NCBI GenBank assembly: GCA_948567375.1
Contig: OX419756.1
Coordinates: 49,552,333 to 49,616,332 of the forward strand
Origin: Lunularia cruciata
Taxonomy: Eukaryota > Streptophyta > Marchantiopsida > Lunulariales > Lunulariaceae
Reading direction: 5' to 3'
Length of the DNA stretch: 64,000 nt
Part shown: one piece after another, positions 2,574 to 64,000 of the stretch
Numbering within the stretch: the stretch's first letter is position 1
Layout: the number at the start of each line of letters is the position of its first letter
Translations under genes and position numbers: made by a program
Notes under the pieces: generated by a model
Database searches by the model: none
What the model saw: only the letters and a program-made list of their open reading frames with translations
Told to the model about the DNA's origin: nothing

Positions 2574-5500
2574 TATGACAACCCGTCAAATATCACTTTT
2601 GTGATAGTCAGGTAAGTAAAGGTCATTTTTGCAAAGAAAATGGTCAGAATTAGTCAAATATGAAGACAAATGGTGACAAGCAATTCTTCTTGGTTGCATC
2701 TTTAATCTCTTAGGTAGAAACTGCACCAAAAGAGAGTAATAAGCACTAACTTGCAATCTCGTCACAAGTTAACACTCATTAATCACAACTCCATCAAATA
2801 CTTGTCCAAACAATTCTTGATTGTGATGATTTAGATTCTCCTAAGGACTGCACTTCATTGCAAAATGACTTCACCTTAGAATTGCATTGCACCCCTCCAC
2901 TGAAGGACAACTTCCTTGATCAAAATTGTTTCATATCAACACTAGGCTGCACTCACAACTGCAGAATACTACCAACACTACAATTCTCTCTTAGATCCAT
3001 CAAGGCATTGCTCCGATTGCACTTCACTCAGGATCAAACACATAGAATGAAGATGAAGGTTGCAAAATCCAACATCCAACAAACACACTGACTTGCACTT
3101 CAAAATTCTACAAACACTCACAATTTCAGAAATATAGAGTTGATACTCGGAATTAAGCTCAAGCAACAAGCACTAAAATCAGCACTTCACTTTATCTATC
3201 TTCAAAAATTATGAATACTGAACAACATAACACTGCAAATGCCCCCTTTAAATAGTAGAGCAATTGATAGGTGCTAACAACTATATTGTTTTACAACAAT
3301 TCTACAAACTTGCAAATCCAAAATAACAATGCACCTCTTCATATCTGCCCTTCAAAATCTTGGATCTATTACTACTACAATCTAATGTCTACCTCGACTT
3401 CAGCTTCTAAACCCAATGATACTCCTATTACTTCTCCTTCTTTAGGTCTATCTTTAACTACCAAATCCTTCACTTTTTCTATTGCTTCTTCACTATGAAC
3501 TACAATTGAGGTCACGGGTAACCTTTCTAACTCTTTATCTCCCTACCCACTCTTTTCTAAAGTGTCAAGAGTTAAATCTGAAGACACATGCACTCCTACC
3601 TCTACAACTTTGACTTCTTATCTTCTTGCACACTACTCTTAAGTCTCTCTAACTCTGAGTTCACTAAACCTGATCTAAGACTTACGTTGTCTCTTACCTC
3701 CAACATCTTTTTATCTACTCTTTCCCTTAAACAAATCAAAAGAGTGTTCATATCTACATCTTCACTCTCCTCTTCCGAGTTTCCTGCACCAACCATTTTA
3801 AGTAGTGCAATGTTGCTTCTTCCAACCTTCCTTCAGACTCCGTGCTTAGCATGGCTTGCAATCTTCTAACAACTTCTCCAACTGATTCTTATGCATACCC
3901 CCGAGATTGTTTTACCTTCAACTCTTCTCGGTACATCTTCAACTTGTCTTCATACTCAATAGCAAGCATCTTCTTCTCCTCTGCATATTGAGAACTTTGT
4001 AGCTCAACACTTCTTATAAAGCCTCTCAATCTTTCTTTCTCTTGGTGTTGGATCAACAACTCTCTCTACCAGGCTTGATCCTTTCCTATTGCACTCTTCT
4101 TTAGGCTCTCTAAATCCTGCTCCATCACAGTTGCCATCACTTTCACATGAATACTCTCGATGTGAGCTTCACTAACCTCCTCTTTCATCTTTGTCAACAA
4201 TGTCGTATGCTCCTTCAACTCTTCGCTTGACGATGCATCTCTTTTCCACTCTCCTAAAAACTCTCATGCAAATTCTCTAACGTCTTCTTCTTCAAGAGTG
4301 CATCCACCTGAAACTCCTTAACTTCTTCTTCTCTTTGGGTTATACTTTCCCGCAATCCCTTCACTTTGTCTAGGAGATACTTCATCACCTGCAACTCATT
4401 CTTCACCTTTATACAATCTTGCAAGATAACTTTTTGTTGCACCTTCAATAGCTCCAACAATGGAGTCACAATCTGCATTAAATATTAAACTCCCCCAAAG
4501 CTCTCTTTGGCTTTGTCTCTGTTTTTGTACTTGGTTTCTTCTACCGGCGCCTTCTCCCAAAGTCTTGATCTTTGTACTTTTAGTGATATTGCTTCCAAGA
4601 TTTCTTCTTCCTTACCAGCTGAACTTGGTCTTGCAAGGTCTTCCATTATTGATTTCTTGTCTTTGTCTCCCTTTTGGTCTTCCTTCTTTGGCTTTGCATC
4701 CATCTCCTCAATGGCCAGTTTTTAACAAGGATTATCTCTTCCCTCCTTATGGTCAATTGCTCCATGAAATGCTTCATCTTCTTCCACTTTAGCCAATTGC
4801 TGAACTTCCTCTTCACCACCACTCTCACTTCCAAATTTTGCTTCTTTTGAGTCTCCTCCTCTGGACTCTATCTCTCCTTCAGACTCTATTTCCAAATTTT
4901 CCTTCTTCACCACCTTCTTTTTTCATAGAGTAAGTCTTCTTTTGTTATGGCTAAGGCAACACTACATCTTTGGGTTTAGTTTGCTTCTCCGTCTTTGGAC
5001 GTCTTCCTTCCACACTCTCTCTCTATCCAGTTCTAGTAAAGTGATCATTGCTGGCTTGTAGGTGTGACATGTAGTGCTACTTCTCTTCATCCAATTTTTG
5101 GTGTAGATTAGGATAGAAATGTGACACCATGCAATGCCTTTCCTCTGCTAGCAACAAATTCAATGCAAAGTAGAAATGTGCTGCAAATGGTGCAAAGTAG
5201 TGTTGAGGCAAATTGGTTCTCCAATTGACAATCATCTGCCTCATTTGCTGGTGGAAGCACTTTGCCCAGTTCACCTTCATTGTTGCAAACATCTGGTGGA
5301 AGAAGACTACCTGTCGCATGTTCAAGTATGTCATTCATTCGGGTTTGGACATGGCCATTATTGCTCCTACAATGCTTCATTTACTTGGGTTCCAATAGAA
5401 CTTCACTTTGTAACATTGGTAGTACGTGGGGTGAAGAACATATTTCTGATTTCCGCAGTCTCCTTTGCAACATCACACTTCCAATAGAAGATGATTCCCG

Positions 5501-6204
5501 TTGCTTCTCTTGCTTACTTCCCCAATACTAACCTCCAATCCGACTTAGTCCATTGAGCCAGATTTCCTATCTTCTCCTTGACTTCAAGGCCTTCCTCACA
5601 ATTATTGGCAGCTATCTCTGCCATGACTCTTGGGAAATTGAAATTCCAATTCCATGCTAGAAATGTAATCTGAAGTCTATTCAAGACCTCTATCCTTGCT
5701 ATGACATCTAACCTCCAAATTGCAAAATTCCTCACTACGACTGCATTCTTAGCCTTTTTTGCTATGATTTGCTCTCTAGTTCTTTGGCACTAAAAACCTA
5801 TCTCCTCTCCTTGACGTGACATTCTAACCGCTTTTGGAATTTGGAAAATTTCACTCTCAATCGGCTTCTTGATGTGCATTATTGCAAGATGACTACTCAG
5901 AGGAATTGGAAGGGCTTCTTCTCCTACCTCCACCATTTCTTGAAGTGTACTTTCTTGCCACGTAGAAAGGTTGTTACACCGTCCTTGTATCGGCCTTCAC
6001 TTCTTGGTCCAAAGATGCACTTCTTTGGACTTGTCTCTTTGTAACCCCACCCGAGTATTTCTGATTCCCGACCCCAAGTTGACTTTTTTGGGTTTACTCC
6101 AAAGACACACCAATCCATTCTTTCCTTTGTAATTAGGCTTTCTTACTCAATTCTTCTTCAAAACTTTAACAAAACAAAACAAAACAAAAATTGTGGGTAC
6201 CACA
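2574..6204 (-). mobile_element. Unit A: giant solo-LTR-like element, minus orientation
   Basis: Read on the minus strand, the unit starts TGTGGTACCCACA (ends at 6204 here) and finishes GGGTTGTCATA at 2574, where TGTCACA has one mutated base. The flanking 5-mers are ACCAC (2569-2573) and ACTAC (6205-6209), a target duplication with one mismatch. The host gag continues on both sides. The interior holds a decayed copy of the unit's long ORF and a TTTAAATAG box (CTATTTAAA on the minus strand) near 3248-3256. There are no terminal repeats within the unit and no polymerase domain. A run of AAAAC repeats lies near the 5' end (6167-6190). Confidence 0.85.
3386..5771 (-). pseudogene. Unit A long-ORF remnant (coiled-coil protein)
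   Basis: The minus strand carries broken pieces of the unit ORF in order. An N-terminal region lies at 5,070-5,770, with AIWRLDVIARIEVLNRLQIT and later FVLHHMFATMK-like blocks. A charged linker lies at 4,480-4,915, and coiled-coil fragments at 3,600-4,480 (for example LLDKVKGLRESITQREEE). The start codon expected at 5771, ATG in units B, E and F, is ATA here. Frameshifts and stops separate every piece, so this copy is dead. No protein family was recognised. Confidence 0.7.
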
Positions 6205-6446: not shown

Positions 6447-6451
6447 GTAGA

Positions 6452-9400
6452 TGTGGTACCCACATTTTTTGTGTTGACAAGTTTTGAAGAAGAAGTGTAT
6501 TGAGGAAGCCAAATTAAAAAAGAAAGAATGGACTTATGTGTCTTTGTAGTAAAGCCAAAGAAGTTGATCTTGGGTCGAGAATCAAAAGTACTTGGATGGG
6601 GTTATGAAGAGACAAATCCAAAGAAGGGCGTCTTTGGGACGGGAAGCAAAGGCCAATACAAAGAAGATGTAACAACCTTTCTATGTGTCAGGCCAGCCAA
6701 GAACATACACTTAAAGAAACAGTGGAGGCAGGAGAATAATACCTTGACAATGACAGGAGACATGCAAACATGCAGAAGAAGTGGGAGTCAATTATGAAAT
6801 CGATTGAAGAATGACTTCACTTCAAGGTACTATAAAATTATAATTGCATAGGGGGAAATCAAACATGTCAAGTAGATACCATGTCCCTTTGAGTAGTTGT
6901 CCTACAATAATGCATGTCAAGAAGCCAATTGAGAGTGAAATTTTCCAAAGTCTAGAAGGGGTTAGAGTGTTGTGTCCAAGAGAGGAGATAATCTTATAGT
7001 GCCAAAGAACTAGTGAGCAGATCATGATGAAGAAGACTAAGAATGCACTTGCACTTGTAATTCAGCGATTAGATGTCATAGCTAGGATTGAAGTCTTGGA
7101 CAGACTTTGGATCACATTCCTGGCATGGAATTGGAATGTTAGTTTTCTAGGTGTCATGATAGAGATAGCTGCCAATAATTGTGAAGAGGGCCCCAAAGTT
7201 CTATGGAAGAGAGGAAATCCGGCTCGGTGGACTGAGTTGGATTGGAAGCTAGTACTTGAGAAGGAAGCAAGAAATGCAACTGGGGTTTTTGCTCTGCTAT
7301 AAAGTGGAGTCTTATCAACACCCAATTAAGTGAAGCATTGTGGGGGCAATCATGGCAATGTTCAAGCCCAAGCGAACTACATACATGAACATGCAGCAAG
7401 TGGTCTTCTTCCACCACATGTTTGCAAGAGAGAAGGTGAACTAGGTAAAGTTCTTCCATCAAAGAACAAGGGAGATGATCATCATTGGAGGACCAATTTG
7501 CCACCACACTACTTTGCACCGTTTGCAACACACTTCTACTTAGGATGAAATCTGCTAACAATGGAGGAGAGGCAACATATGGTTTTGCATTTCCATCCCA
7601 ATCTTGGATGAGAATCGGATGAAGAGGAGCAACAATACATCTTGCAAGTACAAGCTTGTGCAATCATTACATCAGAATGGGACTGAGGGAGATGGTGGAA
7701 GAAAGAAGTCCAAAGACAAAGAAGCAGACTAAACCCAAAGAAGTAGCCTTACCCCAGCCACAATGGAAGACCAAAGACTCAATCTGCAATGTAAGAAGGT
7801 AGTGAAGGATGAGACTTTGGAGATAGAGTCCAAAGGAGAGACATAGCCCAAGAGACGAGACTCCAAAGAAGCTGAACTCAAATTATAGAGTAAGGAGTCT
7901 AGGAGTGAGAGTGAAGGTGAAGATGAAGTCCAACAATCAGTTGAGGCAGAAGATGATGAGGCGTTCCATGCAAGGATTGATTGTATGGAGAGAGGAGATA
8001 GCCCTTGCTTAGAGTTGCCCATGGAGGAGATGGAAAAAGAGCCAAAGAAGGAAGACAAAAAGGGGTAAGATCTAAGAGGTCAATGATAGCTAAACCTGTA
8101 GGTCTGAGCTCACTGTATAAGGAAGAAGTAAGCTCGGAAGGAAGGTCATTGAAGGTATGAAGATCAAGACTTTGGCGGAAGATACAAGCGGAAGGAGCAT
8201 CAACGGAGGTGAATTACAAAGATGGAGCAAAAGATGAAGACTTTGATGGAGTGGAGTACTTATTGTAGATTGTGGGTCTATTGTTAGTGTTATTGAAGGA
8301 TCATATGGAGGTGAAGAAAATGAGTTGTAGGTGATGAAGTATCTACTGGATGAAACAAAGGAATTGAAACAGTTGGTAACTCAAAGGGAAGAAGAAGCTG
8401 AAGACCTTAGAGTGGATGCAGTCTTGAAGAAGAAGAATTTAAAGAACTTGCAAGAGAGTTTCAAGAAGCATGGAAGAGAGATGCAAATCAAGCCAAAGAG
8501 TTGAAAGAGCAGAAAGTGTTGGTGGAGAAGATGAAAGGTGAAGTTAGCAAACTTTGCATTGAAAGCATTCATGTGAAGGTGATGGCGGTTGTGATGGAGC
8601 AGGAGTTGGAGAGCCAAAAGAAGAGTGCGGCAAGGAAGGATGAAGCATGGCAGAGAGTTAGCAATCCAACACCAAGAGGAGAAAAGGTTGAGAAGCTTGG
8701 TAATAAGTGTTGAGGTACAGAGTGCTCAGTATGCAAAGGAAAAGAAGATGCTTGCAGCCGAGTACAAAGATGAGTTGAAGATGTACGAAGAAGAGTTGAA
8801 GGCAGAATGATCTCAAGGGTATGCATTAGAGTCAATAGGAGAAGTTGTTGGGAGACTAAGAACAATGTTGAGCATTGAGTTTGAAGGAAAGATGGAGGAA
8901 GCAAGACTGCATGAATTGAAGTTGCTTTGAAGGAGATGAGAAAGAGAAGAGCAAAAGATGTGGATTTGAACACTTTGTTGATTCATATGAGGGAACAAGT
9001 AGATAGGAAGATAATTGAGGTAGGAGACCATCTAAGTCTCAGATTAGACTTAGTAAATTCAGAGTTAGAGAGACTTTGGAGTAGTGTGAAGGAAGATAAG
9101 AAGTTTGAAGTAGCAGAAGTAGGAGTGTAGGTGTCTTCAGATCAATTATCAAAGACATTAGAGAAGAGTGGGTTGGGAAATAAAGAGATAGAAAGGTTAT
9201 CCATGACCTCAATTGTTGTTCAGGGTGAAGAAGTAGTAGATATAGTGGCGGATGTAGTAGAATTAGGTAGACCCAAAGAAGGAGAAGTGATAAAGGATCA
9301 TTGAGTTTGGAAGCCAAAGTTGAAGTAGACATTGGATCGGATTAGAAATAGATTTGAGACTTGAAGGGGTAGATATGAAGAGTTGCATTGTAGTTTCAGA

Positions 9401-10135
9401 TCTACAAGTTTGTAGAGTTGTAGTAGAACAATATTTTTGTTAGTAACTATTGATTGCTCTACTACTTAAAGGAGCATTTGTAGTGTTATGTTGTTTAGTA
9501 TTCATAATTTCTGAAGATAGATAAAGCAAAGTACTGAGTTTAGTGCTTGTCGCTTGAGCTTAATTCTGAGTATCCAGTTTGTGTTTGTGAGTGTGTGGAG
9601 AATTTTGAAATGCAAGTCAATGTGCTTGTTGGATATTGAATTTTGCAGCCTTGATCTTCATTTTGTGTGTTTGATCTTGAGTAAAGTGCAATTGGAGCAA
9701 CACCTTGACAAATCTGAGAGGAAATTATAGTGTTGGTAGTATTCTGCATTTGTGAGTGCAACACTAAGTTGATGTGAAGAAATTTTGATCAAGGAAGTTG
9801 TACCTTCAATAGAGGGGTGGAACACAATTTTGAGGTGAAATTGTTTTATAATGAAGTAGCCATCTTTGGAAAAATCTGAATCATCACAATCAAGATTGTT
9901 TGGATAGAATTGAATGAGGTGTGATTGAGGACTGTTAATTTGTGACGAGACTGAAGATCAATGCTTGTTACTCTCTTTTAGGTGTGGTTTCTACCTCAGA
10001 GATTAAAGATGCAATCAAGAAGATCTACACAATGATCATTTTCATTTGTATTTGACCAATTCTGACTTGTATCTCTATGGGAACAAACTTTACTTACTTG
10101 ATTACCGCAAAAATGATATTTGTCGGGTTATCACA
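6452..10135 (+). mobile_element. Unit B: giant solo-LTR-like element, perfect target duplication
   Basis: It starts TGTGGTACCCACATTTTTT at 6452 and ends GGGTTATCACA at 10135. GTAGA flanks both sides (6447-6451 and 10136-10140). A 5-bp duplication with TG...CA ends is the signature of a retroviral-type integrase. The 3,684-bp interior contains a decayed long ORF (7024-9346), a TATA-like TACTTAAAG at about 9462-9470 and a 3' segment of roughly 665 bp shared with every other unit. It interrupts the gag of Host-1. Confidence 0.92.
7024..9346 (+). pseudogene. Unit B long-ORF remnant
   Basis: An ATG at 7024 opens MMKKTKNALALVIQRLDVIA, matching the start of the E and F copies (MANKTKNAL- or MAKKVTNAL-like), so this start is preferred in the A/B/E/F subfamily. 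The N-terminal region runs to about 7,660, a charged linker covers 7,690-8,290, and the coiled-coil part spans 8,340-9,340. It ends at TAG near 9344, in the same context (GACATTGGATCGGA) as in E. At least several stops and frameshifts are present. Function is unknown. Confidence 0.7.
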
Positions 10136-14191: not shown

Positions 14192-14854
14192 CTATGAAAG
14201 GTCCAAAGTACCCAGGCAAAAACTTCTTTTGCACTCTCTTGAATCAAATGGAATCAAACAACATAACCCAATCACCTTCTTTGAAAGGCTCCACCTTCTT
14301 CTTGCATGCCTCTTGTCATAGCTCTTCTTTTCTTTCCTTTGGGCTTGCTCCACTCGAACCATAGCAATTTCTCTTGCCTCTTCCAACTCCATGAGTTGAT
14401 CCTTTGTTGATTTCTCTCCATCACCTCCTTGTGCTTTCTTCAATCTCTTATGAATGCTTTGGAAGGAAGGAAGATCAAAATGAATAGGTAAGGTAGACCC
14501 AATACCATATACCAATTGAAATGGAGAATATCTGATGGAAGTCTTCATGGTTGTTCTATACTCCCACAAAACTACATGTTTAGCTCCCTTCATTTTTGCA
14601 TCTTTGGCCAACATCATGCACAAGGTTTGATTGGTTCTCTCTGCCAAGCCATTGGAATTTGGCTTATAGGATGTAGTTACTTTATGTATGATAGAGAAAT
14701 GTTGTAGCATGGTTGTAGTGATGCTTCTTATAAACTCTACTCATCTATCAAAAACCAACTCCAAAGGGCATCCAAACCTAGTGATAATGTGTTCATAAAG
14801 AAATCTACCCACTTCATCTTCATTCTTGTCCCTCAATCGTCTAGCCTCAACCCA
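14192..14854 (-). pseudogene. Host-3 integrase, C-terminal half
   Basis: The minus strand reads WVEARRLRDKNEDEVGRFLY and then ITRFGCPLELVFDR, containing the second catalytic aspartate region of the integrase core. It continues with TTSYKPNSNGLAERTNQTL, which holds the catalytic glutamate. A lysine/arginine-rich C-terminal part follows, ending just before the LTR. One stop follows VFDR and the end is frameshifted. The first half lies across unit C, which cut the gene in the codon series for NWVEA. Confidence 0.8.
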
Positions 14855-16738
14855 TGTGACAACTTGGCAAATATCACTTTTGCGGTAATTAGGTAAGTAG
14901 ATTTTGTTCATGCAGAGATACTGGTTAGAATTAGTCAAATACAAAGTCAAATGTCATAATGTAGTTCTTCTTGAGTTCTTCTTTAATCTCTCAAGTAGAA
15001 GCCACAACCCAAAATGAGTAATAAGCATTGACTTGCAGTCTTGTCATAACAATGTGTCACACTTAATCACAATGTCATCAAATCTTTCCAAACAATCTTG
15101 ATTGTGATGATTCAGGCTCTCCCGAAAATAGCACTTCACTGCAAAATGACTTTGCCTCAGAATTGTGTTCCACCCCTCCACTAAAGGCACAAATTCCTTG
15201 ATCAAAATTGCTTCATATCAACACCACAATGCATTGACAAATGCAGAATACTACCAACACTACAATTCCTCTCAAATCTATCAAGGCATTGCTCCAATTG
15301 CACTTCATTCAAGATCAAACACAGAGAATGAAGATCAAGGCTGTGGAATCCACATCCAACAAACACTCTGACTTGCACTTTGAAATTCTCCACATACTCA
15401 CAAACACACATACAATGTTGATACTTGGAATTAAGCTCAAGCAACGAGCACTGCTTCACAACACTTTGCTTTATTTATTCTCAAAAATAATGAGTACTGA
15501 ACAACATTTTACTACAAATGCCACCTTTAAATAGTGAAGCAAACGATAGTTATTAACAACTTTACCGTTTCCTAACAATTCTTCCTACTTGTAGATCCAA
15601 AATGACAAACCACCTCTTCATATCTGCCTCTTCAAATCTCAAAACTATGACTACTCCAATCCAATGTCTACTTCTTCCTTAGCTTCCAATCCTGAAGTAA
15701 CTTCACTCATAACTCTGTCCTTGGGTTTCACAACTACTAATTTGTCTACCAATTCCACTACCAATTCACTTTGATCTACAATTCTTGTCATAGTTAATCC
15801 TTCTAATCTCTATCTCCCGACCCACTCTTCTCTAAAGTGTCAAATGTCAAATCCGAAGGCACTTGCACTCCTATCTCTCTTACTTCGGGTCTAACTACTA
15901 TCAATTCCTTTACTAATTCTACTATGTCCCATCAAGAATTGTAATTGAAAGCATGGGTACACTATTTACGCCTTCAATTTGCAACCCAATTTCTCCTAAT
16001 CACTCACGTAATTGACCCAAAGACACTTACTATCTTATCCTGCACTTTGAGTTCATTCACTATTGCTGTTTCTCTTCTAATTCTATCCTTTCTTCAATCA
16101 GAATTGAAGTCATGGGCATCCTAAATATCTTCTTTCCTTCCTCTAACTTCCTCTAACTCCTCAGGCAAGATTCCCCAAGTCACCTTCACTGCACTCCAAG
16201 GTCCAACTACCTTAGGTTGAATAATATTTTTCTTTAAAAAAAGTCTTTAGACTCAAAGTCATTTAAACCTGAAGTCTGAAGTCTGAAGTCTTGTAGACCC
16301 AAAGACACTAACCTACTCTCTAAATCTACTCCCAAAACTTAAAATGCTTGTAACTTTTGCGACAAACCTCCAAACTCTATGATTTTAGTAGCAAAAGAAA
16401 GCCTTGGACTAGGTGCTTCCAACGAGATATATCATGCATGATTTGGACCTTTTTTCAATGAGATACAGCCCCCGCAGTAATCTTGAAATGTAACCTCTAT
16501 TCCGATGCAAAGAAACCCTCCTTCATGTCGAGTCCAAGTTTTTCCTTCCTCTGACATGAAGTAAGCTACTTTGGGTCTGATCAAAACCAAGTCCTTCTTC
16601 CTCCAATCCAAAGTCGACTTCTCTAGGCTTGATCAAAACACATGTTTCCACTCATTTCTTCTGCGTTTGGTTTCAATTTGGTTTCACCAAGCACTTCTTC
16701 TTCAAAACTCATCCAAAATGAAAAATGTGGGTACCACA
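14855..16738 (-). mobile_element. Unit C: shortened, divergent unit with perfect target duplication
   Basis: The left end is TGTGACAACTTGGC at 14855 and the right end GTGGGTACCACA at 16738, with ACCCA on both sides (14850-14854 and 16739-16743). At 1,884 bp it is about half length. The 3' third matches other units, including the TTTAAATAG box near 15,526-15,534. Only the last part of the coiled-coil ORF is recognisable (about 15,660-15,900); the N-terminal region is missing. The 5' part (about 16,300-16,738) is divergent. It interrupts the integrase of Host-3. Confidence 0.88.
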
Positions 16739-17640: not shown

Positions 17641-17643
17641 TAG

Positions 17644-19347: not shown

Positions 19348-19762
19348 CATCGTACACACATTTTTGTTTTTTTCTTATTTTTGAAGAAGAAGTGTATATA
19401 TAAAGTCATATTGCGCCTGTATGGCATCAGAAGGCAGAGAATGGTGTCTTTGGGGTGTAACCCAAGGAAAAGTGACTTTGTGTCAACAAATGAAGTACTT
19501 GGATTGGTCCTGTTAACATTCAACTTGAAGTAAGGAAACTTTGGCTCGGGGGTGCTCAACCAAGGCAAAGACAGTGTAACAACTTTCCTTCGGGGTTGGA
19601 CATTCAAGAAGGTACTGCTCATAAAAACAGCTGGCCTATGAGCAAGAGGGGGGAATTGATAGTGACAAGAGCATGCAAGAGGTGTGATTTCTTGGTAGAA
19701 ACTCAAAGTGAAGAAAGACGGAGAAGGCACGCCACTATAAGATTTGGGATAGAGAGAAAGAG

Positions 19763-45831: not shown

Positions 45832-45832
45832 T

Positions 45833-45844
45833 TGGTATCAGAGC
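45833..45844 (+). other. Primer-binding site, initiator Met-tRNA
   Basis: TGGTATCAGAGC starts one base after the 5' LTR end. It is complementary to the 3' end of plant initiator methionine tRNA, the usual primer for minus-strand DNA synthesis in plant LTR retrotransposons. Confidence 0.95.
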
Positions 45845-49413: not shown

Positions 49414-50390
49414 GATGTTCAAGACTTTGTTCGATCATGTGAGAGTTGCCAACGGAACAAGGCCAGCAACCAGAAGCCGAGTGGACTCCTTCAACCACTC
49501 GCCATTCCATCCGCTCGTTGGGAGCATGTGAGCTTGGATCTCATCACATCCTTGCCAAAGACAAAACAAGGACACACCGCCATCGTGGTGTTTGTGGATA
49601 AGCTTAGTAAGCAAATCCACTTGGCACCAACTTGTGATACCGTGGATGCTCCAACCTTAGCACAAATCTACTTTGACAATGTCTTCAAGCATCATGGCAT
49701 GCCACGCGTACTCATCTCCGACCGTGATCCTTGCTTTACCGGGAAGTTTTGGCAAGCACTCTTTCAGATACTCGGCACCAAGCTTGCTTTGTCCATGGCC
49801 TATCATCCTCAAACTGATGGACAAACTGAACGCGCCAATCGTACATTGGAGGATATGTTGCGGGCCTTTGTCAATGTCCACCATACCAACTGGGATGAAT
49901 GTCTTGCAGCTGCAGAATTTGCCTACAACAACTCCAAACAGGCAAGCATTGGATTTTCTCCCTTCTTTCTCAATTTTGGCCAAGATCCGCTTGTTCCAGA
50001 TTCTCTTCTTGCTCCCCCTCCCTCTCAGGTTCCTCATACTTCCACATTCTTGACCACTATATCCCGCTCTCTCCAACAAGCCAAGTCTCACCTCCTTGTT
50101 GCTCAGAATCGCCAAAAACAATATGCAGACCATCATCGTCGTGATCTCACCTTTGAAGTTGGTGATAAAGTCATGTTATCCTCTAGTAACCTCCTTCTCC
50201 CACTTGATACCCAAGTTCGTAAACTTGCTCCTAATTGGATAGGACCCTTTGATATCACCCATATTATCTCTCCTGTTGCTTATCATCTTGCCTTAGCTTG
50301 TCACATGCGTATCCATCCTGTCTTTCATGTTTCCAAGTTGAAACCCTTTGTTCCTAACCCTTCTTCCTTTTCCTCTGAGTCCAACCTCCC
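49414..50390 (+). pseudogene. pol: Chromovirus integrase core and GPY/F domain
   Basis: The zinc finger finishes with CESCQRNKASNQKPSG (near 49,440-49,485). The core follows: SLDLITSLPKTKQGHTAIVV with the first Asp, ISDRDPCFTGKFWQALFQIL with the second, and YHPQTDGQTERANRTLEDML with the catalytic Glu. The C-terminal region includes NWIGPFDITHIISPVAYHLA (GPF motif, near 50,233-50,290) and HPVFHVSKLKPFV. The frame is open from 49,414 to the frameshift near 50,340-50,390, in a pyrimidine-rich stretch. Confidence 0.93.
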
Positions 50391-50693
50391 CCTCTTCCTA
50401 TCCCTATCAATGATCATGAGGAGTACGAAGTTGATTGTATCCTTGCGCGTCGCCATATTCAACGAGGCCGTCGCCAACACACGGAGTACAAGGTCCTTTG
50501 GAAAGGGTATCCCCTTCATGATGCCACATGGGAACCTCTTTCTCACCTCCAAAATGCACAGATGGCCATCAAGGAATTTGAAGCTTCACTGGCGACGAGG
50601 ACGTCACCAACTAGCAGCGGGGGAATATGTAACAATATGGAGTTTAGTGACGAAGTTAGTTGGGCTTACGAAGTAGAGAATAAGCCAAAATAG
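50391..50693 (+). pseudogene. pol: Chromovirus chromodomain, in shifted frame
   Basis: In a different frame from the integrase, the sequence reads YEVDCILARRHIQRG, then TEYKVLWKGYPLHDATWEPL near 50,429-50,570. This is a chromodomain with its conserved W-K-G-Y and WEP blocks. Chromodomains at the integrase C-terminus define chromoviruses and guide insertion to certain chromatin. The stop is TAG at 50,691-50,693, about 66 bp inside the 3' LTR. The shift from the integrase frame is most simply a one- or two-base indel. Confidence 0.88.
50613..50625 (+). other. Polypurine tract next to 3' LTR
   Basis: AGCAGCGGGGGAA ends three bases before TGTAACAATATGG of the 3' LTR. A purine-rich run here is the usual primer for plus-strand DNA synthesis. 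It is short and contains two pyrimidines. Confidence 0.65.
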
Positions 50694-51050
50694 CCTAGAA
50701 TATTCTAGAAGCATCTAAGAAGCTTCTTAGGAAGCTTCCCAACTAGTTAACTTGCGCCCTAAGCAGGTAGCTTCTAGAAGGAAGCTTCTAGAAGCTTCTA
50801 ACTAGCTTAGCTTGCACGCCAAGTAGGCGGCTTCTAGAAGGAAGCTTCTTGAGAAGCTTCCTAGTTAACTTGACTTGCACTCCAAGAAAGCGGCTCAAGG
50901 AAGCTTCTTGAGAAGCTTCAAAGGTCTTGTATGCTACCTATAAATACCAAGGCCAAAGCTCATGCTAGGCATTCAGAGTTTTCCCTCATTCAAGTGTCCC
51001 AATGTGAGTTTCCATTCTCCTATTTCTCTCCTCGGTTTCGGTCTTTTACA
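50628..51050 (+). repeat. Chromovirus 3' LTR
   Basis: 423 bp, the same length as the 5' LTR, with four transition differences and no indels. It carries the same heat-shock-element clusters (perfect four-unit site at 50,781-50,798) and TATAAATA at 50,939-50,946. It is followed by the target duplication CCATC. Confidence 0.96.
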
Positions 51051-51055
51051 CCATC

Positions 51056-52507
51056 ACTGGCAACTACTTCAACCTGTGGAGTGATCTCCTTCTTTACCTC
51101 TTCTTCTCCCAATACTCGCCTTCTTCTCTACAGTCATCGTATTGGAATAGACGCCTCGCTTCTTGAGCTTTCATGTGCTTCTCCCTTCACCATACTCGGA
51201 CCTGCTTCATACTTTGCCTTACGTCTCGAGCAAACTCCTCTCTGTACTGCAATCGTCTTCTCTTTGGGCACAGTTACTTCATCTTCCAGATGTGTGTTGT
51301 CCTCGGCTTTGATCTCTGCCTGCACTCTTTCTCCTTCTTCTTCTTCTTCTGCAGCCACCGGCGCCGATGTCATTTCTCCTCCTTCATCGCTGTTGCTACT
51401 CGTATCTCCACTCTGTAGCATTAGCTCAGGCTCCTCCTCGTGTTCCGAGTCTTCAGTCTTAAGCTCGGCGTCACCTTCCGAGTCTTCATCCTCCAACTTG
51501 ATCACCACCATACCTCACCTCGGGTTACCTCTCCTGGTCTTCCGAGGTTTCTTCATGTCTTCGGCTTTGCCTTGCCGACTTCTCTTCTTCGTATTTGGAG
51601 TACTCACCTTGATGTCCACGTTCTTCCCTGTCTTCTTGTAATAGTCATTGGTGCTCTTGATTTGCAAAATGTATTGCTGCTCCTTGACATCTACCTCCTT
51701 TCTCAAATCAGGATGGAAGTGCGACACCATCCGAGTTTGCTCCACCGAGTTCAGCAAATTCAGCCTGAGGTAGAAATGCGCTGCAAACAACACGATGTAG
51801 TGTGGAGGCGATTTATCCCGCAAATTCCACACCATTTGCCTTGTTCTCCCATGGAAACACCTTGCCCAATTGATCGGTTCTCCTGCAAATAACTTGTGAA
51901 AGAACACCGCTTGGTGTTTCATCACATATGTGGTCCTCTCCGGCTTCAAGATGGCCATCAATGCACTCACAATTCCTCTCTTCACAGGGTCTTTGTAGCT
52001 CTCAACTTTGTACCCATTCTTCATCCGCTTTGATGAGAATGCATCTCGCACCTCTTGAGTCTCTTGAGCTATCTCTCCCTTCCCCAAGAACGTGCCCCCT
52101 TGCTCCGAGCCTGCTTCCTTCCCGAGTACAAGTCTCTAATCCGACTCTGTCCAGCAAGCCGGATTTCCTCTCTTCCCTTCTCCCTCGGGTCCATCAAGAC
52201 ACTTGCTCTCGATGATTTCTGTCATGAAACATGGAAAACTCACGTTCCAGTTCCATGCCAAGAATGTGATCCAAAGTTGGCTCAAGACTTTGATCCTAGC
52301 AATCATATCTAACCTCCGAATCGCATGATTTCTCACTACAAATTCAGAGTTCTTCTTTCCTCCTCCCATCTCTTTTGCCTTCTCACTATCTCTCAATTTC
52401 ACTCTTGCGACTTCTCCCTTACACACTAACGCGATTCCAACTCTATTTCCCTTCTCATGATCACCTGCAAGACGACTTCTCAACGGCAAAGGAAAATTAC
52501 TTGACAT
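51056..52507 (-). pseudogene. Unit G long ORF, 5' half
   Basis: The start is ATG at 52507 (MSSNFPLPLRSRLAGDHEKG), the same start as D and H. The conserved N-terminal region covers about residues 1-285: AIRRLDMIARIKVLSQLWIT, then GYKVESYKDPVKRGIVSALM, then FAGEPINWARCFHGRTRQMV. A basic patch, TKKRSRQ...KKPRKTRR, follows near 51,540-51,590, then an acidic region to about 51,190. Stops lie at 52,136-52,138, 51,515-51,517, 51,134-51,136 and 51,128-51,130, with no frameshift. The frame joins exactly to 44,269-45,408. Confidence 0.8.
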
Positions 52508-52921
52508 TTCATCATCACGAGTTCAATTTTTATAGAGTTGCACTTTCTTTGTCTTTCTTCACTTCGAGTTTCTACTGAGAAATCACACCTCCTACATGCA
52601 TCTGTCATTGTCAATCAACCTTCGCGCGTATGGGCCGCCAGTTTTTGAACAGTCCCTTCTTGAATTTCTCACCCTGACAAAAAGTTGTTAGACTGTCTTC
52701 ACCTCGGGTTGAGCTCCCCCCTATACAAAGACACTTTACTTTGGGTTGTATGCTGACAGGGCATTTCCGAGTACTTTGCCTTATGACCCGAAGTCACTTT
52801 ACTTTGGGTTTCATCCCGAAGACTCTTTTCTTTGCCTTCTTTGGCCATACAAGCGCAATCCGACTTCTCTATACACTTCTTCTTCTTTATTTTGAAAAAA
52901 AAATGTGGGCACCACACATCT

Positions 52922-56156: not shown

Positions 56157-56814
56157 TGTGACAACCAGGCAAATATCACTTTTGCAGTAATCGGGTAAGT
56201 AAAGTTCGTTCCCGCAGAGATACGAGTCAAAATTGGTCAAATACAAAGCAAAGTAACCATTTCAGTTCTTCTTGGTTGCGTCTTTAATCTCTCAGGTAGA
56301 AACCACACCCAGAAGAGAGTAACAAGCATTGACTAGCAGTCTTGTCACAAATTCACACTTCTTAATCACAAATCCTTCAATTCTTTCCAAACAATCTTGA
56401 TTGTGATGATTCGGACTCTCCCAAAAACGGCACTTCACTACAAAACAACTTCACCTCAGAATTTTGTTCCACCCCTCCATTGAAGGCACAACTTCCTTGA
56501 TTGAAATTGCTTCACATCAACTTCGCACTGCACTCACAAATGCAGAATACTACCAACACTACAATTCCTCTCAGATCTGTCAAGGCATTGCTTCGATTGC
56601 ACTTCACTCAGGATCAAACACACAGTGAAGATCAAGGCTGTGGAATCTAACATCCAACAAACACACTAACTTGCACTTCGAATTTCTCCAAACACTCACA
56701 AACATAGACACAAAGTTGATACTCGGAATCAAGCTCAAGCGACGAGCACTACTTCATAGCACTTTGCTTTATCTATTCTCAAAAATAATGAGCACTGAAC
56801 AACATTTCTCTACA

Positions 56815-56832
56815 AATGCCACTCTTAAGTAA
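56815..56832 (-). promoter_or_regulatory. Conserved TATA-like box of the unit family
   Basis: On the minus strand, ATTACTTAAGAGTGGCATT follows the ORF stop by about 120 bp. The same place in other units reads CTATTTAAAGGRGGCATT (A, F), CTACTTAAAGGAGCATT (B) or CTATTTAAGAGTGGCATT (E, G). Conservation of the box and its GGCATT context in all complete units supports a promoter. Transcription would run into the 3' segment and beyond, as expected for an LTR U3/R border. Confidence 0.6.
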
Positions 56833-56947
56833 TGAACAAATCAACAGTTCTAACAACTATACCGTTCTACAACAACTCTTCTAACTTGTAGATCCAAAAT
56901 GACAATGCACCTCTTCATATCTGCCTCTTCAAATCTCAAAACTGTTA

Positions 56948-59521
56948 CTAATCCAATCCAATGTCTACTTCTTCCTCGGCTTTCAAACCCGAACCCGAAG
57001 TAATTTTACTTCCTACTACTTTTTCCTCGGGTTTCATATCTTCTACCTCTTCTACCAGATCCAACAATTCTCTTTCCTGATCTAAAATTTCACTAGTGGG
57101 TAATCTATCTAACTCCTTATCTCCCGACCCACTCTTCTCTAATGTCTCTGATGGTAACTCCGAAGACATTTGGACTCTTATGTTATCTACTTCGGGTTTT
57201 GCTCTAACATCCCTCCGAAGTTTTTCTAGCTCTATTTTCACTAAGTCTAATCTAATTGAAATATTGTCTTCTACTTCTAATATCTTCCTGTCTACACGAG
57301 TTCTGAGACTAATCAACAAGGTATTCATATCTATATCCTTCACTTGTCTTCGCCTCGTCTCTTGCACCAACCACTTTAATCCATGCAGTCTCGCTTCTTC
57401 AATTCGAACGCTGGCTTTTGTACTCAACATTGCGTTCATCCTGAGGACAATCTCCTTCAATGGCTCCAACCGCATCTTTCTCTCTCGCTCTTGATCTGCA
57501 AGCCAGTCCTCTCGGTACATCGCCAACTCCGCTTTGAACTCGGCTTTCACCGTCTCCTTCTCCTTCTCCTTCTCCTTCTGTACAACCTTCTCCTCCTGAT
57601 TATGAAGTAACTCTCGTAATCTCTCTTCTTCCCTATACTGTGCAGCCAACTCTCTTTTCCAGAGTTGCTTCTTCTCTTCCATACTCTCCATCACTCTATC
57701 GAGCTCTTGTTCCTTTGATGCTACCCTTGCCATAGCATGGATAAGTTCTAATCTTGAATCAACAAACTGTTGCTTCAAGATTTCGTATTCTGCTACTTGT
57801 CTCTCTCTTGCTATGTCACTCTTCCTTGCAAGATCCTCTCGATAGCTCACTTCTCTCTTCAGGTCTTCAATTACCTGACTTCTCTCTACTACCTCCACTC
57901 GCAATACTTCCCTTTCCTCCTCACCTTGGGTTACACTCTTCTTCAACTCCGAGTTCTCTTCTTCTAATTGCGCTAATACCTGCAACACAGTCGTCACCTC
58001 TGGATGCATCTCCCTCTTCTTGTGCTCCAACTTTACCAACAATGGACACACAATCTCTTGCAGGCACTCCACTCCATTCATCACACCTACTTCTTCCTGC
58101 GTAGAAATCTCCTTCCTTACCTCTTTTTCACCCGATACTCGCCTTCTCCTCTGCAGTCTTTGTATCGGGATTGATGCCTCACTTCCCGAGCTTTCTCCTA
58201 CCTCTTCCTTCACTTTACTCGGCCCCGCTTCACACTTCGCCTTACATCTCGAGCAAACTCCTCGCTGTACTGCGATCTTCTTTTCCTCGGGCACAATTAC
58301 TTTGTCTTCCAACGGTGTGTTGTCTTCGGCTTCCAACTCGGCTTGCACTTCTTCTTTGTATTTGTCCGCCGCCGGCACCAATGTCATCTCTCCCCCTTCA
58401 TCACTTTCATTGTTTGTATCTCCACTTTGCAACGTTAGCTCCGGCTCCTCCTCGTGTTTCGAGTCTTCCGTTTTGAGCTTGGCGTCTCCTTCTGAGTCTT
58501 CATCCTTCGACTCAATCACCACCATACCTCGCCTCGGGTTACTTCTCTACATCTTCCGAGGTTTCTTGCTTTCTTCGGCTTCACCTTGCCGACCTCTCTT
58601 CTTTGATTTTGGAGTGCTCGCTTCTATCTCCACGCTCTTACCCGTCTTCATGTAGTATTCATCAGTGCTTCTGATTTGGAGAATGTACTATTGTTCCTCC
58701 ACGTCAACGTCTTTTCTCAAGTCGGGATGGAAATGAGACACCATTCTGCTTTGCTCCACCGAATTGAGCAAATTCAACCCGAGGTAGAAATGTGCTACAA
58801 ACGGCACGATGTAGTGTGGAGGTGACTTATCCCGCAAATTCCACACCATCTGTCTTGTCCTCCCATGGAAGCACCTCGCCCAATTAATAGGCTCTCCTGC
58901 AAACAATTTATGGAAGAACACCGCTTGGTGTTTCATCACATAAGTTGTTCCCTTTGGCTTCAAGATTGCCATGAGAGCACTCACGATCCCTCTCTTCACT
59001 GGATCCTTGTAACTCTCAACCTTAAACCCATTCATTGTTCTCTTCAAAGAGAAAGCGTCTCTCACTTCCTGAGTCTCCTGAGCTATCTCTCCCTTCCCCA
59101 AGAACGTGGCTCCTTGCTCCGAGCCTGCCTCCTTCTTGAGTACTAGTCTCCAATCCGACTCTGTCCAGCGAGCCGGATTTCCTCTCTTCCCCTCTTCCTC
59201 GGGTCCATCAAGACACTTACTCTTGATGATTTCTGTCATGAATCCTGGAAAGCTTACATTCTAGTTCGATGCTAGAAAGGTGATCCAAAGTTGGCTCAAG
59301 ACTTTGATCCTTGCTATTACATCTAACTTCCGAATCGCATGATTTCTCACGGCAAATTCGGAGTTCTTCTTCCCTCCTCCCATCTCTTCTACCTTCTCAC
59401 TCTCTCTTGATTTCACTCTTGCGACTTCTCCCTTGCGCACTAACACAATTCCAACTCTATTTCCCTTCCCCCGATCACCTGCAAGATGACTTCTCAACGG
59501 CGAAGGAAAATTACTTGACAT
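56948..59521 (-). pseudogene. Unit H long ORF, about 857 codons, three stops
   Basis: The start at 59521 (MSSNFPSPLRSHLAGDRGKG) is shared with D and G. Residues about 50-285 form a conserved region (AIRKLDVIARIKVLSQLWIT, then FKVESYKDPVKRGIVSALMA, then FFHKLFAGEPINWARCFHGR). A basic patch lies near residues 300-325. An acidic Glu/Asp/Ser linker covers about 333-430, and a long coiled coil about 480-760. The end is AEEEVDIGLD-stop. TAG codons at 59,261-59,263, 58,688-58,690 and 58,547-58,549 interrupt one continuous frame. The last 525 codons (58,525-56,948) are open. The domain order suggests a nuclear, dimerising, nucleic-acid-associated protein, but no family is recognised. Confidence 0.82.
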
Positions 59522-59934
59522 TTCATCGTTGCAAGTTTGATTTTTATAGAGTTGCGCTTCTTTGTCTTCCGTCACTTCGAGTTTATACCAAGAAATCACA
59601 CCTCCGGCATGCACCTGCCACTGTCAATCAACCTTTGCATGTATGAGCCGCCAGTTTTTAAACGGCCCCTTCTTGAATTTCTTGCCCCGACGAAAGGTTG
59701 TTAGATTGTCTTCACCTCGGGTTGAGCTCCCCCCAATACAAAGACAATTTACTTCGGGTTGTATGCTGATAGGGCATTTCCGAGTACTTCGCCTTATGAC
59801 CCGAAGTCACTTTACTTTGGGTTTCATCCCGAAGACTCTTTTCTTTGCCTTCTTTGGCCATACAGGCGCAATCTGACTTCTCTATACACTTCTTCTCCTT
59901 TATTTTGAAAAAAAACAAAAATGTGGGCACCACA

Positions 59935-60473
59935 GCTTTTTATGTGGAAAGAAGGGACAAAAGGCAAGTTCATGTCCATTGAGCTTTGAGAGCAAGAGAT
60001 TGAGTGAAAAGAGAAGCTTACTTGACTTGGGATTGCATGTTGGACCTTCTTCACTAAATTTGAGAGAGAGGAGATCTAAGACCAAAGAGTTGTGTGAGGT
60101 TTGTGGAGTGGAAGAACTTCCAAAAGGACACGAATGTAGTGGAGAAATAGCACTCTTGGAAACTTTGATGAAAGATCTTGGAGAGAGTCTTAGTACAACT
60201 ACAAAGATACTATCACCTTCTCAGCTAGTTCTCAAGATGAGTGATGAAGATCTTTCAACTTATGGATAAACTATCCATGAGGGTTTAATTAATATGTATT
60301 CTAGGATTTGATCTTATTATAGAAATCTTAGAGCAATCTGAACCTTTTGTATTCTCTAGGGTAGATTAATCTTAAATAATTTTTGGTCATGTATATACTC
60401 TATTACCTATAGAGTGAGAGAAAAGTAAAGAAAAAAAGATTGAGAGAAAAGAGAAAGATAGTGAGGAGCTAAG
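59935..60473 (+). other. Host-4 leader, right of unit H, with small zinc-motif ORF
   Basis: This is the continuation of the Host-4 leader up to gag. An ORF of 96 codons (59,979-60,269) contains CEVCGVEELPKGHEC, a possible zinc-binding cluster, and TLMKDLGESLSTTTKILSPS. It may be an upstream piece of gag. A direct repeat AGAGTGAGAGAAAAG near 60,410-60,430 matches the Host-3 leader at 27,690. Confidence 0.45.
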
Positions 60474-61430
60474 ATGGAGAAAATTTTGGTTTCCTTTTGC
60501 AAGAATGGAGAAGATGTGGAGACCTTTGTGAGAGACTTCAAGAGAGCTTGCATAGCAACAATGAGAGGAGGAAGAATGAGTAGACTTCATTATTACCAGA
60601 TTTCTTTGAGGATACAACCTGGTATGAGTCAGAATACCGAAAGAGAGAGAGAGGAGAGATGGGCAAGAAGAGTCTTAGCAAAGTTTGACTTCAACACTCA
60701 TTGACAAATTTCTCCCAAATGAGAATTATGAGAGATTGATGAATGAAGTTACCTTCCTCAAACAAGGAGATAGAAAGAAAGGGAGAGTCCATGTAGAAAG
60801 AGTAGAGAAGTTAGAGTCCAGGTTCTGCATAGTGTTGATGAAGAGTGGGGATCATTTGGAGGCTACTTTGATTGGCATAGGAGCCATGCTCACCAAGAAT
60901 TTTGTTGGGAGGGTTGAGTACAAAAATTAGAAGCAAGGTGAGATATGAGAAACATTCTTCCAAGGTTGAAGCTATCAAGATTGCAATACATATAGAGGAG
61001 AGTTTGGAAGGAGATAAGAGTGATTTGGTGGTGAAGTAGGTTATGCATCCTTCTCAAGGCTACAAGTATAGTGAATCTTTTGACACTTTGGTGTTAAGGG
61101 TTGCACCACAGGTAGTGGTTTCTTTGGTTCTTGCACCTCTACCAAAAGATCCACTTCAAACCATCACAAAACAACTTGTAGATCTCAAGATCAATGTAGT
61201 GCAACTATGGGAGAAGAGAGAGGTGGATTGAATTATGGAGGAGGGCCTAAGAGTTATAGAAGCTATCCATATAGAGGAGGCAAAACCAACCAACAATTTC
61301 AATGATAGAAATTGTTGTGGAGGAAGAGGTCACATCCAAAGGAATTGCCCAAATTCCACTTATCATGGAAGAAGGGATTGTGAGAGAGCCAATAGAGAGA
61401 AAGAGGGAGGTAGTGAAACCCAAGTGGCTC
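60474..61430 (+). pseudogene. Host-4 gag
   Basis: The ATG at 60474 opens MEKILVSFCKNGEDVETFVR. The reading matches Host-3 gag: DKFLPNENYERLMNEVTFLK, GIGAMLTKNFVG, KDPLQTITKQLVDLKINVVQ, then a knuckle near 61,313-61,350 reading CCGGRGHIQRNC, where the first half is damaged. Frameshifts near 60,700 and 60,915 and stops near 61,040 and 61,230 break it. Confidence 0.75.
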
Positions 61431-61869
61431 ATAATTCAAACAAAGGTAAGGAGATAACATCCATAGATGTGGTTGAGAGAAAATATGTTAAGGAGGAGTG
61501 CTCAAATTCCAAAGGTCTTAATTTGGTTTTTTTTGCACAATAGTAGAAGAGAGCTTGTTTTGCAAAGAATATACACTCTTCTCAAGGATTTAGTCCTAAC
61601 AAAACTACTCCTATGCCTACTAGGATCACTTGCACTAGCACCTCAATGTCATCAACAAGACTCAAAAGACTCCAAGAAAGAAGTTGAGGATGGAGGACTC
61701 ACTTCTTGATCTCAAAGCAACAATGGAACTACATTGTGTTGGGGGATGTTTGTAGTCACAAGGCCAACATCATAGTGGGCTAATTGATCACTTTGAATCT
61801 TACTTTGAGAAAGGAGCTTAGAGGTGGTTTGAGTTCTACAAGGATCAAGAGGAAGAAGAAAGTAAAAGA

Positions 61870-62510
61870 AAAAACTCTAGTATCAATGGAAATGATGGAT
61901 GCCAAACCAACACTAATGGGAGGCTTGTTAATATGCCTTCAAGATTGATGTGAGAGTGAATAGTGACAACATCAAGGATGCACTTGTTGATGGAGCATCT
62001 GTAGTGAATACCATGTCAAAGAGGTTGATGAAGAAGTTGGGTATGATATCCTCTAGACCTTCAACAATTGTGGTGAGCATAGCAAACAAGCAACAAGTTC
62101 AACCAATAAGGGTGATGGATAAGGTGGTAGTTTCAATTATTGGAGTTTAGAATCTCATGATTTTCCAAGTCTTGAAGGATTCAAACTATCATTTGCTTCT
62201 TTGGATGCCATGGTTAAGAGTAACATGCACAACTGATTGATGGCACAAAGGGTTCTTGAGGATGGGACCATCAAACCATTGAATTATAGTTTATGTGAGT
62301 AACACTACAACACTTCACATTTAGATACACCATCTTTTGATAATTGGGAATTAGATTCAGAAGAAGGAGCCTCAAGTGTGGACACAAGCATGAAAAAAGA
62401 GACTTCCATGGAGGAAGATGAATCTAAATTTGATTTAGATATATATCCTTTGTGTGCTATGGATTTTTCACCTAAGCTAGAGGTTTGAAGACCTAGATAA
62501 ATCACCATTG
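61870..62510 (+). pseudogene. Host-4 protease and acidic linker
   Basis: KDALVDGASVVNTMSKRLMK near 61,975-62,035 corresponds to the protease active site with DGA in place of DTG, so it is probably inactive. The region VVSIANKQQVQPIRVMDKVV follows. The linker near 62,320-62,470 is acidic, as in Host-3. Between 61,430 and 61,870 the reading is a degraded gag-protease spacer. This copy preserves the undisturbed host sequence into which unit D jumped in Host-3. Confidence 0.7.
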
Positions 62511-63618
62511 ATACTTGAGGAGATAGTGAGGAGGTTATCTACCCTCAAGTATGGTCCCAAAATTACAAAGGAAGAGAAGGTGAGCTTTGAGGAGATATTT
62601 TGTAGATTTATCCATGTGTTTGCTTTCAATTACAAGGATCTAAAGGAAGTCACCTTGGAGGAATAGAAGGTAAAGTTAGAATCACATGCAAGACCAATCG
62701 GCCAAAAGTAATGTTGCATTAGCCCAGCAATAACTTCAATTGTGAAGGAGGAGATTGATAAGCTTAAGGAAGCCAGATTTATCCTTGAGGTAGAGAATTT
62801 AGAATGGGTATCTCCAATTGTGATTGTGAAGAAAAAGAATGGTAAGCTTTGAGTATGTGTGGATTACAAGAAGCTCAATATTGTTACTAAAAGGGACTAT
62901 TACTGTTTGCCATTCATTGATGAGATCTTGGAGGAGGTTGCATGTCATGAGAGGTATAATTTTGGAGATGGTTATAGTGAGTATAACCAAATCAAGATTG
63001 CACCAGAGCATCAACAATTCACCACATTCACCACACCTTGGGAGACTTATGCTCTCAAGGTCATGCTTTTTAGGCTTTGCAATGCTCCAGCCACATCCCA
63101 ATCATTCATGAACAAATTATCTGAACCTTCTATTGGAAAATTTATGAGACTTCATTGATGACTTTTGTGTCTATAGGAACAAGCAAGAGCAATGCTTGGA
63201 ATGCTTGGATGAAGCAAATGCATCTCTCAACCCAAAGAAGTGCATTTTTGGTTGTGAAGAAGGTTTAGTTTTGAAGCACATCATTTCCAAGGATGGATCT
63301 TGAGAAGGCGAGGAGAATCTCAAACCTTCCCTTCACTTCAAGCTTGACAAAGTTATGCCAATTCTTGGGGATGGTTGGATATATAGGAGGTTCTTCTTTT
63401 CATTTTCTAACAAGGCTTATGCATTGATAATCTAGATGAACATGGTGATTTTGGAGGACAAGGAGGCTCTCAAAGATGTTAAGGAGCTCAAACAATCCCT
63501 TGTTGTGGCTCCAATTCTTACTAAACCTGATTGGAGTAAGCCATTTATCCTCAACATTGATGCTTCCATTTTAGCTATAGGATGCAATCTTAGTCAATTA
63601 GATCAAGATGAGCATGAT
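62511..63618 (+). pseudogene. Host-4 reverse transcriptase and RNase H start
   Basis: RT motifs: VDYKKLNIVTKRDYYCLPFI, EHQQFTTFTTPWETYALKVM, FRLCNAPATSQSFMNK and a frameshifted DFIDDFCVYR catalytic block near 63,152-63,178. HIISKDGS follows near 63,280. RNase H starts with PFILNIDASILAIGCNL near 63,543-63,590. Unit I begins at 63,619 and cuts RNase H. Several frameshifts and stops are present. Confidence 0.75.
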
Positions 63619-64000
63619 TGTGACAACCTGGTAAATATCACTTTTGCGGTAATTAGGTAAGTTAAGTTCGTTCCCGCAAAGATACGAGTCAGAAATATCC
63701 AAATACAAAGCAAATAGTAACAATGTAGTTCTTCTTGGTTGCGTCTTTAATCTCTCAGGTAGAAACCACACCCAAAAGAGAGTAACAAGCACTGATTCGC
63801 AGTCTTGTCACAAATTAACACTTCTTAATCACAACTCCATCAAATCTTTCCAAACAATCTTGATTGTGATGATTCAGGCTCTCCCAAAAATGACACTTCA
63901 CTGCAAAATGACTTCGCCTCAGAATTGTGTTCCACCCCTCCACTGAAGGCACAACTTCCTTGATCAAAATTGCTTCACATCAACTTCACACTGCACTCAC
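63619..64000 (-). mobile_element. Unit I: 3' end of another unit, cut by window edge
   Basis: It begins TGTGACAACCTGGT at 63619 after ATGAT (63614-63618), the expected target duplication. The remaining 382 bp match the 3' segment of the other units throughout, for example TTGGTTGCGTCTTTAATC and CACTGAAGGCACAACTTCC. Its ORF and 5' end lie outside the window. Confidence 0.9.

Follow-up and report, generated by a model that had tools for sequence, protein, structure and literature searches.

A protein gene maintained by selection inside the large long terminal repeats of a Ty3/gypsy-type retrotransposon from Lunularia cruciata

A 64,000-nt stretch of the Lunularia cruciata genome (contig OX419756.1 of assembly GCA_948567375.1, forward-strand positions 49,552,333 to 49,616,332; hereafter the window) contains nine copies of one repeated unit, A–I, which together occupy ~27,200 bases (~42%). 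These units, read here as long terminal repeats (LTRs) that carry a protein gene of their own, were defined by self-comparison of the window and by alignment to a reference copy, unit H (Table 1), and both procedures returned the nine copies counted in an initial annotation of this DNA. The layout described there, a long open reading frame (ORF) followed by a TATA-like box and a 3′ segment, holds as a general plan. It is incomplete in several copies: C lacks most of the ORF and A its start, D and E are each short of 0.3–0.4 kb of the ORF, F is truncated on its 3′ side, and only the 3′ 382 bp of I are present. Unit C also includes ~0.8 kb that could not be aligned to the ORF of the other units, and may represent either a deletion derivative or an ORF-less type of LTR.

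Both ends lie inside the window in seven of the nine units (A, B, C, D, E, G and H). The TGTGG...TCACA termini (in unit sense) previously assigned to the family are intact in B, C, G and H and have decayed in the other three, with A ending in TCATA, D beginning with TCTGG and E beginning with CATCG. Likewise, the 5-bp target-site duplications (TSDs) are perfect in B, C, G and H, with four of five bases alike in A and D and three of five in E (GCTGG/ATTGG at edge 19348). Across these flanks 28 of 35 bases matched and four units were perfect, with E scored as 0, compared with a mean of 9.4 bases (largest 21) and 0.012 perfect units (largest 1) in shifted-flank controls (n = 1296). The insertion site of E, which sits in one copy of an older gypsy family, is uninterrupted in another copy of that family at ~61905–61925. 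As the initial annotation had stated, end repeats are absent: the first 400 and last 400 bases of H, B and C have no direct word longer than 8–11 bases in common, which is the length seen in shuffles. The inverted match between the unit ends is ~5 bp by eye. The start of the LTR forms a near-palindrome, TGTGGTACCCACA or TGTGGTGCCCACA (for example at 6452–6464), which has decayed in D and E and has no counterpart at the 3′ end.

The source genome (566 Mb, 74 contigs) was searched with a 601-base piece of the unit. This gave 6186 first-look candidates, the best 40 of which were scored and, apart from the window itself, showed 93–94% identity; 20 of the 39 other best matches were examined as 10-kb stretches. 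Six of these loci (L010, L014, L016, L020, L022 and L024) had no unit countable as complete and were left out, so that 14 complete units were counted in the 20 loci, with TG...CA termini intact in 11 and one end decayed in L017, L021 and L026. Seven of the 14 were solo units with TSDs, matching at 5/5 bases in L012, L013, L017 and L018 and at 4/5 in L009, L011 and L027. Five (L021, L023, L025, L026 and L028) had a purine tract, such as agggagggggta, directly before TGTGG (TATGG in L021); their upstream flanks are 91–94% alike over 0.85–3.0 kb and have a pol region in common. The remaining two (L015 and L019) were followed by tgattt and then by primer-site-like TTGGCGCCGCTGCCGGGG or a variant, the sequences after the units being ttggcgccgctgccgggg or ttggcgctgctgctgggg; their flanks agree at 91% over 2.9 kb and include a common gag region. 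The TTGGCGCC-type primer site of these two loci (or its variant) is a putative match to a transfer RNA (tRNA). A further arrangement was seen in L020 (3101–7577), where two same-sense units abut, positions 1–2879 of H being followed at once by positions 1–1598, in a tandem or nested configuration.

Pairing of LTRs was tried on five longer elements, using small pieces at their predicted far ends. In two of the five, a pair of LTRs was found inside one perfect 5-bp duplication, tctag for L033...L023 (span 13,839 bp) and gcttg for L034...L025 (span 13,166 bp). Within these elements the paired LTRs agree at 94.2% and 91.5% of the 1378 and 679 bases aligned; the values for three other copies are 88.3–92.2%. 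The internal region, measured from the overlap of its two sides, is 5630–5637 bp long and gave Pfam matches to Retrotrans_gag (5.5e-10), RVT_1 (5.6e-11), RNase H (8.5e-34) and integrase (6.1e-14 and 3.1e-12). These comprise gag with a zinc knuckle in L015, reverse transcriptase (RT) then RNase H in L023, and RNase H then integrase in L025, where the open frame continues to near the purine tract. The order, gag followed by RT–RNase H before integrase, is that of Ty3/gypsy elements. A protease would be expected about between gag and RT, where two open pieces (L015:8745–9875 and L025:2–733) had no Pfam match at 0.001.

Because units in the source genome bound this internal region and, in two elements, both LTRs lie within a single shared TSD, these data support the identification of the seven duplication-flanked single units in the window as solo LTRs. 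This is how the initial annotation had read them, and it had looked to the source genome for just such an internal region, which was indeed found, TCACA being followed by a primer-site-like sequence and TGTGG preceded by a purine tract.

The ORF of the unit and gag-pol run in the same sense, which places the ORF in the unique 3′ (U3) part of the LTR; the proposal that a long frame fills U3 was thus borne out, with 857 codons in H. Within the H/G/E group the ratio of nonsynonymous to synonymous substitution rates (dN/dS) is 0.16 for G–H, 0.11 for E–G and 0.16 for E–H, versus 0.96–1.09 out of frame, while five of the six pairs among A, B, D and F give 0.24–0.29 (0.60–0.94 out of frame). Values between the two groups are 0.20–0.30 (11 of 12 pairs computable) and are rough, with dS near saturation; those for pairs with C (0.26–0.55) are unreliable because most of the frame is missing from that copy. 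In a genome sample of 14 loci copies plus H (15 copies, 105 pairs) the median was 0.26 (0.20–0.61), versus 0.70 and 0.82 out of frame. The third-position ratio in 12 chosen pairs was 0.77–1.16 before the ATG, 1.17–2.67 inside the frame and 0.78–1.29 after the stop, the excess starting near the ATG and disappearing past the stop codon. When transversions alone were counted, this excess was clear in G–H, A–D, B–D, D–F and H–D, modest in E–H and E–G, slight in B–F and absent in A–F. Taken together, these results show that the U3 ORF is a real gene kept by natural selection. In the pair G–H the noncoding parts differ by 8.6% and third codon positions by 27%, which suggests a gene module older than the remainder of the unit, even within this subfamily.

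The LTR would read, in its own sense, as a TG end, 0.4 kb of sequence, a first TATA box (TATA1), the uninterrupted ~857-codon gene and its stop, a second TATA box (TATA2), a short repeat (R) segment, ~0.6 kb of unique 5′ (U5) sequence and a CA end. In each of the six window copies in which this region survives (H, G, E, B, D and F), TATAA(A/G) occurs at the position aligned with TATA1. Some ~600 bp separate an AATAAA-like stretch, the putative end of R, from the end of the unit.

Over the first 400 bp and the ORF, the window copies fall into two groups, H/G/E and A/B/D/F, that are 41–47% apart and 9–29% divergent within. Divergence between the groups is 0.444 in the ORF, 0.435 in the 5′ end and 0.179 in the 3′ module, and within A/B/D/F it is 0.232, 0.223 and 0.200, respectively. 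Beginning at the stop codon, little of this grouping is left, with D differing from H by 0.152, from G by 0.146, from B by 0.190, from A by 0.208, from F by 0.234 and from E by 0.199. The ratio of between-group divergence to that within A/B/D/F exceeds 1.5 in all 18 of the 150-bp windows as far as nt 2700, is 0.99–2.23 in shorter windows over 2601–2960, and is 0.66–1.29 in the 16 windows starting at or beyond 2951. The branch separating the two groups has a length of 0.64 (100/100) in the ORF tree and of 0.009 (23/60) in that of the 3′ module. No tree conflict is supported, and the junction of ORF and 3′ module lies at the stop codon, ~150 bp before the presumed R. The presence of two deep gene subfamilies on one promoter–R–U5 module may reflect template switching, judging from these alignments. 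In Onsen, according to the accessible part of PMC5668417, LTRs are exchanged at the first template switch; most of these events fall in R and one in U3. The junction here precedes the presumed R by ~150 bp and is therefore explained better by gene conversion or a switch in U3 than by one in R.

Searches with the encoded protein gave no recognised relatives; the initial annotation had not recognised it either. Nine open pieces of H gave no Pfam match above cut-off (some of the other reading frames and copies were also scanned), and the ORF pieces scanned against Pfam and NCBIfam yielded sub-cut-off matches only. Protein-database searches with either half of the ORF returned no relative (0 of 1022 candidates, and 0 among the best 7991 listed), where gag of the young Ty3/gypsy element that splits unit G gave three (best 64% identical). 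A PDB profile search with the ORF gave one match with an E-value of 0.21, and searches of IMG/VR, of Rfam and for tRNAs gave nothing useful. Structure prediction, which had been suggested alongside the initial annotation, was informative for the C-terminal piece, modelled as helices at 159–179 and 182–445 with 136 residues at a predicted local distance difference test (pLDDT) score of at least 90; the N-terminal model (pLDDT 47) was not used. The protein is probably an accessory factor of the element, comprising an N-terminal part, an acidic linker and a long rod-like helix, and our best guess is that it serves the element in this role when expressed from U3. It adds a protein family without recognised relatives.

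All of this makes it very probable that the units are the LTRs, here mostly solo, of a ~13.2-kb Ty3/gypsy-type retrotransposon whose U3 contains a complete gene. The family is ordinary Ty3/gypsy in its gag-pol and unusual in its LTR, 3.8 kb long and mostly selected gene. Its predicted layout runs from an LTR (~3.8 kb) through a primer site, gag and pol (~5.6 kb internal) to a purine tract and a second LTR. That all seven testable units in the window are single would also suit a transposon that, like Revolver, is complete as a single unit, is mobilised in trans and never belonged to a two-LTR element; the existence of two-LTR elements with gag-pol, a purine tract and shared duplications refutes a stand-alone unit for the family as a whole and makes this account very improbable. 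The short inverted ends and long ORF would similarly be expected of a DNA transposon making 5-bp duplications, with the orphan protein as its transposase, yet the two-LTR copies refute that reading too and the ORF pieces scanned gave no transposase match, so that we give it almost no credence. It is also conceivable that the ORF was captured and is copied passively in the LTR without use to the element, since every examined copy is broken and no known domain was found; dN/dS well below 1 in both the window and genome samples, in two deep subfamilies, makes this very unlikely, if slightly less so than the two transposon models. An opposite orientation of the LTR is excluded by the sense of gag-pol, the primer site and the purine tract.

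Several observations weigh against parts of this interpretation. Only two of the five longer elements could be paired: L015 and L028 remained unpaired with the pieces examined, and the far LTR end of L019 had an unmatched flank. The solo share of 7/14 is no genome estimate, because the scored units are the best 40 of 6186 candidates. A true AATAAA occurs only in C, and the AATAAA-like stretch is deleted in D. The 3′ module is not fully levelled when set against H/G/E (0.179 versus 0.138), and the ratio taken against that group stays above one in places, owing to the closeness of G and H. A, B, D and F still group in the 3′ module, without support (23/60); when F was left out and I included, A, B and D did not fall together there, yet their clade was not rejected (p 0.137). 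The pair A–F shows no coding signal (0.47 versus 0.48 and 0.69 out of frame). Finally, all 15 ORFs of the genome sample contain stops (2–12 per loci copy, three in H), and because every examined ORF carries them, present function of the gene is not demonstrated.

How the gene would be expressed can be read in two ways. Genomic RNA would be started by TATA2 of the 5′ LTR, and the gene would lie near the 3′ end of that RNA, beyond pol and the purine tract yet within the LTR; other elements keep extra or env-like ORFs at the position beyond pol. Lying inside the LTR, the gene is present in each of the two LTRs of an element and in every solo LTR. One LTR by itself may be able to express the protein by means of TATA1 and the R-end signal. 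The LTR could then be a self-contained gene cassette, with a promoter, ~857 codons and a shared end signal, and solo LTRs, left by recombination between LTRs, could act as dispersed sources of a trans-acting protein, kept by selection. We regard this as quite possible, at somewhat less than an even chance. The gene may instead be in the LTR by position only, so that just the complete elements express it, within the 3′ portion of a genomic or spliced RNA, and solo LTRs are silent remnants. The strongest common module, TATA2–R–U5, serves the whole element and so favours expression by position; the conserved TATA box 27 bp before the ATG in H, present at the aligned place in every window copy keeping the region, counts against it, and this reading too we place a little short of even. 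Co-packaged RNAs would recombine, and old gene and U3 variants would therefore come to be joined to one R–U5 module. With the gene present twice per insertion and once per solo LTR, whether solo LTRs feed the family with protein is testable; if the cassette reading is true, solo LTRs, usually taken as dead remnants, remain protein sources.

Other elements are also present in the window. Unit G is split by a young Ty3/gypsy element (45409–51050) with LTRs of ~423 bp that are 98.8% identical, the TSD CCATC, a primer site TGGTATCAGAGC at 45833–45844, and the gag already mentioned, which has a Retrotrans_gag match. An older gypsy family is present as two degenerate copies; 26199–27707 and 17601–19345 of the second are 84% and 83% identical to the copy at 60398–63617, and the family has a CCHC-like gag at 26726–27415 as well as stretches of RT, RNase H and integrase that were identified by eye. 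Pairing of H with I, or of E with F, as LTRs around this gypsy-like DNA was considered and was ruled out by the TSDs that H and E have of their own, the empty E site and the gypsy frames flanking C. A fragment at 32841–33062 with a YVDD motif is presumably copia-like RT.

Table 1 Coordinates of the LTR units, the features of unit H and the older gypsy copies in the window.
Feature	Position	Strand	Remarks
Unit A	2574–6204	-	TSD accac/actac (4/5); ORF start missing
Unit B	6452–10135	+	TSD gtaga/gtaga (5/5)
Unit C	14855–16738	-	1884 bp; both ends and 3′ 1.05 kb kept; most of ORF missing; TSD accca/accca
Unit E, 5′ part	19348–20205	+	Left edge 19348
Unit D, nested in E	20206–23635	+	TSD gccac/gccat (4/5)
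Unit E, 3′ part	23636–26197	+	Empty form of E site at ~61905–61925
Unit F	27710–30920	+	3′-truncated
Unit G, 3′ part	43479–45408	-	Open piece of 379 codons at 44272–45408
Unit G, 5′ part	51056–52916	-	TSD of whole unit catct/catct; G spans 43479–52916
Unit H, reference	56157–59934	-	3778-bp solo LTR; TGTGG...TCACA; TSD gcttt on both sides
ORF of unit H, in U3	56948–59521	-	ATG to stop, 857 codons; 3 in-frame TAG; longest open piece 532 codons
TATA1 (TATAAA)	59543–59548	-	Starts 27 bp before ATG of H
TATA2 position	56824–56831	-	TACTTAAG in H; CTATTTAAAG in A, C and F; variants in others; 3′ of ORF; putative LTR promoter
AATAAA-like stretch AATAGATAAAG	56767–56777	-	54 bp past second TATA box; putative end of R
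3′ module (promoter–R–U5-like)	56157–56950	-	~790 bp; common to both ORF subfamilies
Unit I	63619–64000	-	Cut by window end; only 3′ 382 bp; inserted in older gypsy copy
Older gypsy family, degenerate copy	60398–63617	+	Holds unit I; uninterrupted where other copy holds E
Older gypsy family, second degenerate copy	14195–14740, 16739–19345, 26199–27707	-	C and E inside

Among known systems, Athila and Tat/Ogre have tRNA-Asp-type primer sites and share with the present family the Ty3/gypsy gene order, a long element and a TTGGCGCC-type primer site; extra ORFs are common in them and are not known to lie in the LTR. The sag gene of mouse mammary tumour virus is, like the gene described here, a protein gene in U3, although it belongs to a mouse retrovirus, is shorter and encodes an unrelated protein. 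Cassandra has a plant LTR with a gene-like module, a 5S RNA sequence, and differs in that this is an RNA gene and the LTRs are short. A long selected protein gene in an LTR runs counter to the rule by which plant LTRs serve as control regions without coding capacity. According to a review of 2010, no LTR that encodes a gene had ever been identified (PMC2851119), and no protein gene in a plant LTR was described in the accessible parts of the open-access literature searched. From what is given in the sections available, rice Retrosat2 also has LTRs of more than 3 kb and an extra ORF0 without assigned function, which appears there alongside ORF1, with no placement in the LTR given (PMC3485330). 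The LTRs of large retrotransposon derivatives (LARDs) likewise exceed 3 kb, but both they and the internal region are noncoding in the description available (PMC2851119), whereas here a selected ORF lies in the LTR and gag-pol lies inside the element. Revolver of the Triticeae, as described in the accessible parts of PMC2851119 and PMC3203089, is a dispersed unit of ~3 kb with one gene of 139 residues in three exons and 20-bp imperfect inverted ends. It resembles the present family in its TG...CA-type ends, which are likened to those of LARD LTRs, in its ~3-kb unit and in its single gene; compared by description, it differs from this family, in which the inverted match is ~5 bp, the gene is one frame of 857 codons, and the unit is the LTR of a two-LTR element.

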